Assembly (NCBI RefSeq): GCF_024508315.1
Contig: NZ_CP101987.1
Coordinates: forward strand, 620,001 to 684,000
Length of the DNA stretch: 64,000 nt
Reading direction: 5' to 3'
Origin: Cellulomonas xiejunii
GTDB lineage: Bacteria; Actinomycetota; Actinomycetes; Actinomycetales; Cellulomonadaceae
Positions 9,984 through 38,873 of the stretch are shown here, piece after piece. The position numbers and the translations under genes were made by a program. Position 1 is the stretch's first letter; each line of letters opens with the position of its first letter. The notes beneath the pieces were generated by a model that saw nothing but the letters and a program-made list of their open reading frames with translations, did no database searches and was not told where the DNA came from.

Positions 9984-11132
9984 TCAGTCCTCGGACGGGA
10001 TGATCAGGGGCTTGATGCAGCCGTCGAGCTTGGACGACATCACGTGGTACGCCTCGGCGATGTGCTCGAGCGGGATGCGGTGCGTGACCAGGTCGCTCGG
10101 CGTGAGGTAGCCCGCCTGGATGTGCTCCAGCAGCCGAGGCCACTGCCGCTTGACCGGTGCCTGGTTCATGCGCAGCGTCAGGCCCTTGTTCACCGCGTCA
10201 CCGAACTTCACGGCGGAGAAGATCGGCCCGTACGCGCCGAGGACGGACACGGTCCCGCCCTTGCGCACCCCGTCGATCGCCCAGTTCAGCGCGACCGGTG
10301 AGCCGCCCTGCAGCTTGAGCTTCGCGCCGGTGACGTGCTGCATGAGGTTGCCGTCCGCCTCCGCGCCGACGGCCTCGACGACGCGGTCCGCGCCCAGCCC
10401 GTCCGTCGTCTTCTTCAGCTCGACCACGATGTCGTCGAACTCGGCGTAGTTGCGCGTCTCCGCGTAGGCGAACTCGCGCGCCTTCTCCAGGCGGTACTCG
10501 AGCTGGTCGACCACGATCACGCGCCCGGCGCCCATGAGCCACGCCGACCTGGCCGCGTACAGCCCGACCGGCCCGGCGCCGAGCACCACGACCGTGTCGC
10601 CCTCGGCGATGTCCGCGAGCTGCGCGCCGAAGTAGCCGGTGGACAGCGCGTCGGTGAGCAGCACGGCGTCGTCGTCGTCGAGCCAGTCGGGGATCCTCGA
10701 CGGACCGACGTCCGCGAACGGCACGCGCACGTACTCGGCCTGGCCACCGTCGTACCCGCCGGTCGTGTGCGAGTACCCGTAGATGCCGCCGACCGCCGTG
10801 GCGTTCGGGTTCACGTTGTGGCAGTTGGAGTACAGGCCGCGCGCGCAGAAGAAGCACGAGCCGCAGTAGATGTTGAACGGGACCATCACCCGGTCGCCCA
10901 CCTGCAGGTTCTGCACCGACGGCCCGACCTTCTCGACCACGCCGACGAACTCGTGGCCGAAGGTGTGACCGATGCGGGTGTCCGGCATCATCCCGTGGTA
11001 AAGGTGCAGGTCGGAGCCGCAGATGGCGGCTCGCACGACCTTGACGACGGCGTCGTTGGGGTGCTCGATCGCCGGGATGTCCTTCTCCTCGACGCGGACC
11101 TTGTACGGCCCGCGGTAGACCATCGCTCGCAT
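9984..11132 (-). CDS. zinc-dependent alcohol dehydrogenase, formaldehyde-dehydrogenase-like
   Basis: 382-residue medium-chain dehydrogenase. Catalytic zinc ligands: ICGSDLHLYHG (Cys38) and GHTFGHEFVG (His and Glu). Structural zinc site: CGSCFFCARGLYSNC (four Cys). Rossmann motif GAGPVGLYAARSA. The long insert (SHTTGGYDGGQAEY) and the AADGN/IDGVRKGG region resemble the glutathione-independent formaldehyde dehydrogenase (FdhA-like) group, so it may oxidise an aldehyde or hydroxymethyl adduct with NAD. The ATG at 11132 follows GGGAGGACAGCG. First gene of a likely two-gene operon with 9413-9970. Confidence 0.9.
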   Translation of the reverse strand: MRAMVYRGPYKVRVEEKDIPAIEHPNDAVVKVVRAAICGSDLHLYHGMMPDTRIGHTFGHEFVGVVEKVGPSVQNLQVGDRVMVPFNIYCGSCFFCARGLYSNCHNVNPNATAVGGIYGYSHTTGGYDGGQAEYVRVPFADVGPSRIPDWLDDDDAVLLTDALSTGYFGAQLADIAEGDTVVVLGAGPVGLYAARSAWLMGAGRVIVVDQLEYRLEKAREFAYAETRNYAEFDDIVVELKKTTDGLGADRVVEAVGAEADGNLMQHVTGAKLKLQGGSPVALNWAIDGVRKGGTVSVLGAYGPIFSAVKFGDAVNKGLTLRMNQAPVKRQWPRLLEHIQAGYLTPSDLVTHRIPLEHIAEAYHVMSSKLDGCIKPLIIPSED

Positions 11133-11399
11133 CGCTGTCCTCCCGCTCGGGTGGCCACCAGGGTGCGGGGGTCTGCCTCCGGGCGCATCTCGGGGGCGGG
11201 GCGTTCTCGCCGTGCGGTGTCCCCGCCGAGCGCCTACGGTCGAGGGCGGCGGGGTTCGCGAGCCCCCGATCTCTTCGCACCGACGGAGGAAGCCCGTCGG
11301 TGTCATCCCGGCCTGCCGGGCGTCGCCGCGCGTCGGCCCCGCCCTGCAGCCGAGTCCTGCAGCACTCCCGCGCACCCGAGATACGGGTGAGGAGGCGCC
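11133..11399. other. intergenic, no gene seen
   Basis: Divergent spacer between the alcohol dehydrogenase and the catalase-like remnant. I see no convincing open frame, hairpin terminator or clear -10 element. The alcohol dehydrogenase promoter should lie here. Confidence 0.5.
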
Positions 11400-11579
11400 A
11401 TGTTCTTCCGAAGTCAAGAGCTCCAGCACAGAGCGACACCGGACCGCCCCGACGCGGTCCACGCCCGCAAGCTCCAGGAGGTCGAGAAGGCGCCCGTGGG
11501 CGTCACCGAGGACGCGTGCCCAGCAGCGTCCCGCTGGACGAGGAGCACCGCGAGGTGTCGTACCACGCCGCCCACGTAG
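11400..11579 (+). pseudogene. probable remnant of a manganese catalase gene
   Basis: An ATG behind GAGGAGGCGCC opens a frame whose first 28 residues (MFFRSQELQHRATPDRPD, then AVHARKLQEV) match the N-terminus of non-haem manganese catalases (LQ..PDRPD....K.QE pattern). After LQEV the similarity stops: no GGQ.GE metal-ligand region follows, and the frame ends at a TAG after 59 codons. Another coding-like piece (VPLDEEHREVSY) lies in a different frame at about 11535. The picture is a gene with a large internal deletion and a frameshift. An intact enzyme would be about 290 residues. Family call is from memory. Confidence 0.55.
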
Positions 11580-11678
11580 CCGTACCCCCGGCTGTACGGG
11601 ACGACGGCCACGGCCGAACCCCGTCGAGAAGGTCACCGGGAAGTTGAAGGACACGTTCACGAGTGAGTGGAGATGACG

Positions 11679-12530
11679 ATGAGCACGCACGACACGAAGG
11701 GTGCGGCCGCTGCGGCGGCGAGCACCGCGAAGGACGAGGCGTCGAGCCTCGCCCACACCGCCGCGGGTAGCGGCCAGGACCTGTACCAGGAGGTCAAGGG
11801 CGGAGCGTCCGACGTGGTCTCCGAGGCCGCCGGGCAGGCGCGCGACCTGTTCGGGGAGGCCCGGACGGGCCTGACCGAGCAGGCGTCCGAGCAGCAGGTC
11901 CGCGCTGCGGCCAGCCTGCGGGCCCTGGGCGACGAGTTCGGCCGGATGGCCGACAGCTCCGACGAGGGCGGCCTGGGTGCGGACCTCGTCCGCCAGGTGG
12001 CCCAGCGCACGGGCGGCGTCGCGACGTGGCTCGAGGACCGCGAGCCCGGCGACGTCCTGCAGGAGGTCGCCGACTTCGCACGGCGGCGTCCGGGAGTGTT
12101 CCTGGCGCTCGCCGCGGGCGCCGGCGTGCTCGCCGGCCGCGTGACGCGTGGTCTGAAGGACGCACCTCCGGCGAGCCCGCGCACGGCGTCGTCCAGCCCC
12201 ACGGGCGCCGCCGCGACGCCGGCGGCCGCTGCGACCCCGACGGGTCCCGTCCCGACGTGGACCGAGCCCTCCATCACCGAGCCCGCGACGCCCACCGTGA
12301 CCGGCTCGACCGGCGTGTCCGGTGGCGCGACCGGGGCCGGTGTGACCGGAGCCGGTGCGACGGGACCGGGCCTGACGGGCGCCTCCGCGCACCCCGAGCA
12401 CGAGGCGTGGCACGCGGCCGGCGGGTCCGCGCCGGTGGCACCGGTGTCGGGGCGCGTCCCCGCGTCGGACCAGGAGGGCACGGCGGGCGGCGACCCGCTG
12501 GCCGGCGTGCTGCGTGAGGACCGACCGTGA
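11679..12530 (+). CDS. hypothetical protein, LEA-like helical with Pro/Thr-rich tail
   Basis: 283 residues, no named family recognised. Residues 1-100 are Ala/Gln/Glu-rich with helical repeats (STAKDEASSLAHTAAGSGQD, YQEVKGGASDVVSEAAGQAR), like the small stress proteins found next to holin-X and DUF3618 genes. A short hydrophobic segment (PGVFLALAAGAGVLAGRV) lies near residue 145, and the rest is Ala/Thr/Pro/Gly low complexity. The ATG at 11679 has GGAG 6 bases upstream. First gene of a three-gene unit; the next GTG overlaps its TGA. Confidence 0.75.
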   Translation: MSTHDTKGAAAAAASTAKDEASSLAHTAAGSGQDLYQEVKGGASDVVSEAAGQARDLFGEARTGLTEQASEQQVRAAASLRALGDEFGRMADSSDEGGLGADLVRQVAQRTGGVATWLEDREPGDVLQEVADFARRRPGVFLALAAGAGVLAGRVTRGLKDAPPASPRTASSSPTGAAATPAAAATPTGPVPTWTEPSITEPATPTVTGSTGVSGGATGAGVTGAGATGPGLTGASAHPEHEAWHAAGGSAPVAPVSGRVPASDQEGTAGGDPLAGVLREDRP

Positions 12531-13090
12531 CCGGGCCGGGTGACCCGACCGTCGCTGCCGGCCGGCATGCGCCGGCCGGGAGCGGGTTCCCGCCGCCGGT
12601 CGCCGACCCTCTCGGTGCTGCCGACCCTCTCGCTGCCGGTGGCCCCCGGGTGGCCGGTGACCCCCTGGGTGCGCCGCTGGGGACAGCGGCACCCGACGTC
12701 GAGCCCGACGGGCGCCCGTCGCTGGGCGACCTCATCGGTGCCGTCACGGAGGACCTGTCCCTGCTGGTCCGGCAGGAGGTCGAGCTGGCCAAGGCCGAGC
12801 TGACCGCCTCGGCCAAGCAGGCAGGCAAGGGCAGCGGGATGCTCGCGGGGTCCGGCCTGGCCGGGTACTTCGTGCTGTTCTTCCTGTCCTGCGCGCTGTG
12901 GTGGGGGCTGCCCATGGGCCGGGCCTGGGCGGCGGTCGTCGTGGCCGTCGTCTGGGCGGTCGTGGCTGCCGTCCTCGCCCTGCGCGGACGTGGCGAGCTG
13001 CGCCGCGTGAAGGGTGCGCCCCGCACCGCCGAGACCATCAAGAAGATCCCGAACGCCCTGAAGGGTGACGAGGAGGCCAACCATGAGTGA
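12527..13090 (+). CDS. phage holin family (holin-X superfamily III) membrane protein
   Basis: 187 residues. After a Pro/Gly/Asp-rich lead, the core is the actinobacterial putative holin-X domain: LGDLIGAVTEDLSLLVRQEV, ELAKAELTASAKQAGKGSGM, then two membrane helices. Despite the name it is chromosomal in actinobacteria and is not evidence of phage; a role in the envelope or in stress response is likely. The GTG start overlaps the previous stop (GTGA) and its end overlaps the next start by 8 bases, so the three genes are co-translated. Confidence 0.85.
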   Translation: MTGPGDPTVAAGRHAPAGSGFPPPVADPLGAADPLAAGGPRVAGDPLGAPLGTAAPDVEPDGRPSLGDLIGAVTEDLSLLVRQEVELAKAELTASAKQAGKGSGMLAGSGLAGYFVLFFLSCALWWGLPMGRAWAAVVVAVVWAVVAAVLALRGRGELRRVKGAPRTAETIKKIPNALKGDEEANHE

Positions 13091-13700
13091 GAGCCCGGAA
13101 GAGATCCGCCAGCGCATCGAGGCGACGCGTGCCGACCTGTCGGCCAACGTGGACGCGGTCGGTGACACGCTCGACCCGCGGCAGGTCGCGCACCGCCAGG
13201 CCGACAAGGTGCGCAGCAAGGTCGGTTCGGTCCGTGACCGCGTGATGGGCACGGCGTCGGACGCCCGCGACTCCGCGGGCGCCTCCGCAGGGGGTGCGGC
13301 CGGCACGGCCCGGTCCGCGGCGGGCTCCGTCGCGCAGGGGGTGAAGGACGCGCCCGCGGCTGTCGTGCAGCAGGCGCAGGGCAACCCGCTGGCCGCCGGC
13401 CTCATCGCGTTCGGGGTCGGGTGGCTGGCGTCGTCCCTGGTGCCGACGTCGGCCCCGGAGCAGCGTGCCGCCCAGGCCGTCAAGGAGCAGGCCCAGGCCA
13501 TGGCCCCGCAGGCCAAGGAGGCGGCGCAGCACATGGCCGAGGGGCTGCGCGAGCCCGCCCAGGAGGCCGTGCAGGCCGTCAAGGACCGCGCGACCCAGGC
13601 GGCGTCGGACGTCAAGGAGCACGGTGCGCAGGCCGCGACCGACCTGCGCGACCAGGCGCAGGACTCCGCCCACGAGGTGCGGCAGGCGCCGCAGCAGTGA
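13083..13700 (+). CDS. DUF3618 domain membrane protein
   Basis: 205 residues. The N-terminus has the DUF3618 signature (SPEEIRQRIEATRADLSANV, DAVGDTLDPRQVAHR). One membrane segment follows (LAAGLIAFGVGWLASSL, about residues 104-120), then a long Ala/Gln/Lys helical tail with repeats of the form VKEQAQAMAPQAKEAAQ. Such proteins regularly accompany holin-X proteins and are probably part of an envelope stress-protection unit. The ATG at 13083 follows GAGGAGG. Exact role unknown. Confidence 0.85.
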   Translation: MSESPEEIRQRIEATRADLSANVDAVGDTLDPRQVAHRQADKVRSKVGSVRDRVMGTASDARDSAGASAGGAAGTARSAAGSVAQGVKDAPAAVVQQAQGNPLAAGLIAFGVGWLASSLVPTSAPEQRAAQAVKEQAQAMAPQAKEAAQHMAEGLREPAQEAVQAVKDRATQAASDVKEHGAQAATDLRDQAQDSAHEVRQAPQQ

Positions 13701-38800: not shown

Positions 38801-38873
38801 GCCGCCTTAGCTCAGTCGGCAGAGCGTCTCACTCGTAATGAGAAGGTCTGGGGTTCGATTCCCCAAGGCGGCT
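38801..38873 (+). tRNA. tRNA-Thr (anticodon CGT)
   Basis: 73-base cloverleaf. Acceptor GCCGCCT pairs with AGGCGGC, discriminator T. D-arm TAGCTCAGTCGGCAGAGC, anticodon stem TCTCA/TGAGA with loop CTCGTAA (anticodon CGT, reads ACG), T-arm GGGGTTCGATTCCCC. CCA not encoded. Followed by a hairpin terminator. Confidence 0.97.

Follow-up and report, generated by a model that had tools for sequence, protein, structure and literature searches.

The closest described counterparts of the locus reported here are the dimanganese catalases of Pfam family PF05067 (1jku and 1o9i). For the solved Mn catalase 1jku, we take the metal ligands to be Glu35, Glu66, His69, Glu148, and His181. Bacterial pseudogenes decay by stepwise deletion. 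Positions 11400–11670 of the window (the 64,000-nt stretch of the Cellulomonas xiejunii genome that was analyzed; this genome is G000 below) are almost certainly a pseudogene of a dimanganese catalase of PF05067, hereafter type A, because collinear similarity to intact genes is combined with disabling lesions and because an intact homolog occupies the syntenic place in the related genome G060. The locus is like the described catalases in the first residues of the remnant, but it retains no catalytic core and is no longer a catalase. It is also like other bacterial pseudogenes in having deletions and frameshifts with both ends kept and the downstream genes intact, but differs from them in that the same gene occurs in many decay states across one clade. 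The locus is a case of ordinary decay of a gene from a known family, of mild interest for the repetition of that decay and for a leader hairpin that has outlived the gene; it presents a catalase caught in mid-disappearance, the copies in sister species ranging from intact through half-gone to nearly erased. None of the titles or abstract openings found in the literature on manganese catalase names this locus.

The first-pass annotation had read a manganese catalase remnant from a 59-codon frame with a good ribosome site, and both features are present on the forward strand: the frame at 11400–11579 in the open reading frame list of the window, and the Shine-Dalgarno-like motif AGGAGG, read from the sequence, at 11390–11395. 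The PF05067 profile matches residues 1–28 of the frame (E 4.6e-4) at 19.7 bits, below the curated cut-off of 27 bits for the family, and 1jku aligns weakly with residues 1–38 (E 0.047 only). A search with the frame across the genus (81 genomes) gave matches within residues 1–36 in 32 of the 80 other genomes, at E 2.1e-10 to 1.2e-6, and the next matches listed have E 0.003 or weaker. An intact type A gene has 882 nt, and the remnant is collinear with it from codon 1 to codon 294 in five blocks, all on the forward strand, with edges that shift by a few bases according to the reference used (G060 or G045). Block 1 (11400–11481; catalase codons 1–28, nt 1–82; 68/82 nt identical to G060) is followed by an in-frame deletion of 159 nt and block 2 (11482–11514; codons 81–92, nt 242–274; 32/33 nt identical to G045). 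After a 334-nt deletion the reading is shifted in block 3 (11515–11565; codons 203–220, nt 609–659; 48/51 nt identical to G045), and a 119-nt deletion leads to block 4 (11566–11610; codons 260–275, nt 779–823; 38/45 nt identical to G060). One extra base, at 11606 or 11611 depending on the reference, precedes block 5 (11612–11670; codons 275–294, nt 824–882), which is identical to G060 at 40/48 nt over 11612–11659 and to G045 at 50/64 nt over 11607–11670. The alignment of the remnant to the G060 gene scores 286, against a maximum of 115 among 390 other stretches of the window.

Neither the 334-nt nor the 119-nt deletion is a multiple of three, although their sum is. The coding-like piece VPLDEEHREVSY, previously noted in another frame, corresponds in the alignment to catalase codons 203–220 in shifted frame. 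The TAG that closes the 59-codon frame (11577–11579) lies within block 4, at a site that reads CAG in the intact G045 and G022 genes; at the old stop codon, the remnant has TGG (11668–11670) relative to G045 and G022, whereas the G060 alignment has a 4-nt gap instead. The earlier proposal of a deletion plus a frameshift was therefore correct in kind, since both are present, but the gene has undergone three deletions and gained one base rather than suffering a single deletion; likewise, the remnant does start at 11400 but extends beyond 11579, to the old stop position at approximately 11670, directly before the next gene at 11679. The alignment to 1jku places the five ligands at codons 35, 66, 69, 150, and 183 of the intact gene, and all five positions fall in the first two deletions. 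Between the remaining pieces and G060, 15% of sites differ, and codon positions 1 and 2 hold 0.55 of these differences; the corresponding value is 0.35–0.50 for G060 against 21 other intact genes, but the maximum over 231 intact pairs is 0.60, so that this is a weak sign of lost constraint. Intact references for the alignment, the codon-position comparison, and the catalase tree were drawn from 22 of the 30 type A loci, with G017, G019, G028, G031, G032, G038, G039, and G080 left out by a strict start-motif filter and G029 having no locus.

In the history that we propose, a dimanganese catalase was once the first gene of a four-gene operon, followed by genes for the protein orfA, a holin-like protein, and a DUF3618 protein. 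Three internal deletions and a one-base insertion have removed the metal-ligand positions and broken the frame; still in place are the leader with the ribosome site and start codon, the 3′ end, and the genes downstream. The left neighbor of the remnant is a divergent gene for a zinc-dependent alcohol dehydrogenase (9984–11132, reverse strand; PF08240, E 3.4e-26; PF00107, E 8.7e-16), which is 90–97% identical in the nine clade relatives and served as the locus marker in the clade. To the right, on the forward strand, are orfA (11679–12530), which encodes a low-complexity protein with no Pfam match and is the first intact gene of the downstream operon, a gene for a holin-superfamily III membrane protein (12527–13090; PF07332, E 3.7e-31), and a gene for the DUF3618 protein (13086–13700; PF12277, E 6.3e-15). 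For the earlier description of this as a stress-type operon, the only support is in the family names PF07332 and DUF3618. In G060 the dehydrogenase, an intact 293-residue catalase, orfA, the holin gene, and the DUF3618 gene are found in the same order as in the window, so that the comparison with related genomes suggested earlier does yield a full catalase at the same locus. The G060 catalase aligns with 1jku over residues 1–270 (E 5.8e-64), and the G060 dehydrogenase is 97% identical to that of C. xiejunii, the highest value among all relatives. orfA lies directly after the catalase both in G060 and in operon-bearing outgroups.

An rpoB tree built from 73 of the 81 genomes unites ten species (G000, G003, G010, G018, G033, G060, G069, G073, G078, and G079) in one clade with support of 0.99; G060, a MAG, is represented in it by only 366 residues of rpoB. 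Within this clade the type A gene is intact in G060, differently broken in seven genomes, and without recognizable trace in two (G069 and G073). Each of the seven broken copies, that of G000 included, outscores 300 of 300 shuffles, with only the part adjoining the dehydrogenase used for G003 and G033. In G078 the start, into which a base has been added, and codons 151–294 survive; the G079 copy has a duplicated start and mainly codons 246–294, in broken frames. In G033 the ATG is changed to ACG, 78 nt are deleted at approximately codons 35–60, one base is lost near codon 124, and the 3′ end is absent. The G003 copy keeps codons 27–44, and what is left in G010 and G018 amounts to approximately the final 16 and 23 codons, respectively, with an internal stop in G010. 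A remnant first read by eye in G069 was rejected, as its score is reached by 31 of 300 shuffles; G073, with 3 of 300, was likewise counted as having nothing recognizable. As separate observations, the broken catalase of G033 (C. phragmiteti; locus L067, from approximately 2180) runs after about codons 204–207 into a coding stretch that by eye looks ANTAR-type, with the operon lost between, and G069 has two equal-scoring rpoB matches on one contig (C1:3196777–3198594 and 3285797–3287614), approximately 89 kb apart.

If the G060 gene was inherited, the rpoB tree as drawn calls for six losses, and even the most favorable resolution of its weak nodes (0.29 and 0.31) leaves no fewer than four. We infer that the type A catalase probably died more than once within these ten species. 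Approximately codons 45–60 are absent from every broken copy, and several independent losses are less certain for that reason, since a shared first lesion could have occurred there, followed by a regain in G060. Under such a scenario, to which we give a minor but real share of belief, a single loss in the ancestor of the clade was followed by further erosion of the broken copies, and homologous recombination restored an intact allele to G060 at the same place. That exchange may happen is suggested by G049, which lies outside the clade in the rpoB tree and groups with the G033 copy in the catalase tree at 0.95, and support around G060 in the catalase tree is low (0.2–0.3), as a single loss with regain would allow. 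However, no breakpoint judged by eye is common to any two broken copies, and the sisters G078 and G079, as well as G003 and G010, retain different parts. G060 clusters in the catalase tree with the remnants of G000, G078, and G079 rather than with a distant donor, at a support of only 0.28.

It is far less probable that the 59-codon frame represents a genuine small gene whose likeness to the start of a catalase is superficial. The retained start codon and ribosome site, and the fact that the first deletion is in frame, are what such a gene would have, but none of the 32 strong matches in the 80 other genomes is a short frame, all of them beginning open frames no shorter than 235 aa, and codons 39–55 of the frame correspond to a segment of the catalase read out of frame. 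A conserved small gene of 59 codons, named earlier as the finding that would overturn the catalase reading, was thus not seen among these matches, and the frame should not receive a gene annotation. Least credible of all is an assembly or sequencing artifact of an intact gene, for which no positive sign was seen, given that the genome is one contig of 4.19 Mb, that the pieces differ from G060 to the extent given above, and that other lesions occur at the same place in relatives.

The remnant might also have derived from the organism's own second Mn catalase, a possibility that was rejected. Like type A, this gene (type B; C1:2127821–2128600) belongs to PF05067, with a match above the cut-off that covers 1–243 of 284 positions, but it scores 230 bits against 328–344 for type A and has a different N-terminus. 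C. xiejunii also retains a PF00199 heme catalase (C1:1758420–1759562), so that the change of oxidative defense proposed by the first-pass annotation would be a limited one. KatG was matched in 3 of the 81 genomes, and G000 was without a match. Besides type A, every one of the ten clade genomes has exactly two full-length catalases, which are type B and one heme catalase in six genomes and two heme catalases in four. Outside the clade, only 3 of 30 type A genomes have two other full-length catalases, and we infer on these grounds that redundancy is the likely reason for the loss: selection on type A was probably relaxed because the clade had gained a second spare catalase (either type B or another heme enzyme), with small deletions eroding the gene. 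This reading is weakened by the genomes outside the clade that lack type A, since 14 of these 41 also lack both other kinds and 17 have one, with two in the remaining 10 (kinship ignored). The 31 genomes with an intact type A gene comprise 24 with one other catalase, 3 with none, and 4 with two (G051, G013, G030, and G060); kinship is ignored throughout these catalase counts, which also exclude three heme catalase matches that are fragments, two of them in G071 and one in G065. Of the 81 genomes, 31 have type A and 29 have type B, and both types are present in 3 (Fisher p 1e-4, kinship ignored). The constancy of the two other catalases across the clade makes the redundancy reading testable.

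The operon persists in seven clade members, and operon-class holin genes are missing from the genomes of G003, G033, and G073. For the 55 operon-class holin genes, type A lies within 6 kb in 15 cases and type B in 13, on the same strand with one exception each; the occurrence of type B near such genes implies that the operon pairs with either catalase type. In other Cellulomonas lineages (G080, G025, G043, G044, G024, and others), the type B catalase was observed downstream of the same kind of holin gene. In G067 and G074, whose operons are catalase-free, the sequence ahead of the operon showed no trace of a catalase, with 7 and 130 of 200 shuffles, respectively, reaching the score.

Approximately 115 nt upstream of the old start codon, on the forward strand at 11278–11302, lies a hairpin, CACCGACGG-AGGAAGC-CCGTCGGTG. 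Of 22 intact leaders, 7 contain the general pattern, CCGRCGG-ARGAAGC-CCGYCGG, about 110–135 nt upstream of the start codon (this pattern only), and it is also found in the leaders of G000, G033, G069, G078, and G079; 5 of the 81 genomes have a single exact copy of the 19-mer, always at this locus. The hairpin is also upstream of the catalase-free operon in G074, and by eye it is absent from G010 and G018. Both sides of the stem vary together in G012 (CCGACGG/CCGTCGG) and G072 (CCGGCGG/CCGCCGG), and these two-sided changes suggest a paired element, with one stem pair G-U or mismatched in G058, G063, and G079. An Rfam search of the window and of loci L062, L071, and L074 returned only one tRNA (window position 38801) and assigned the hairpin to no Rfam family. 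The pattern occurs in 9 of 396 genomes of the order, three of them in the genus; the six matches outside it were taken as chance, as their 3-kb loci contain no match to the window's operon proteins, the dehydrogenase, or the catalase.

Taken as a whole, the losses may tentatively be read as the same operon-leading Mn catalase disappearing at least four separate times in one Cellulomonas clade after a second spare catalase was gained, with most members keeping the holin/DUF3618 operon and several the leader hairpin; we hold this fuller account to be somewhat less likely than not. If true, the clade would provide a natural series in which catalase dosage, not type, was held steady, and the leader would serve the operon and not the catalase. 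As an observation in its own right, the hairpin with its conserved loop is kept in several Cellulomonas genomes in which the catalase is broken or gone.
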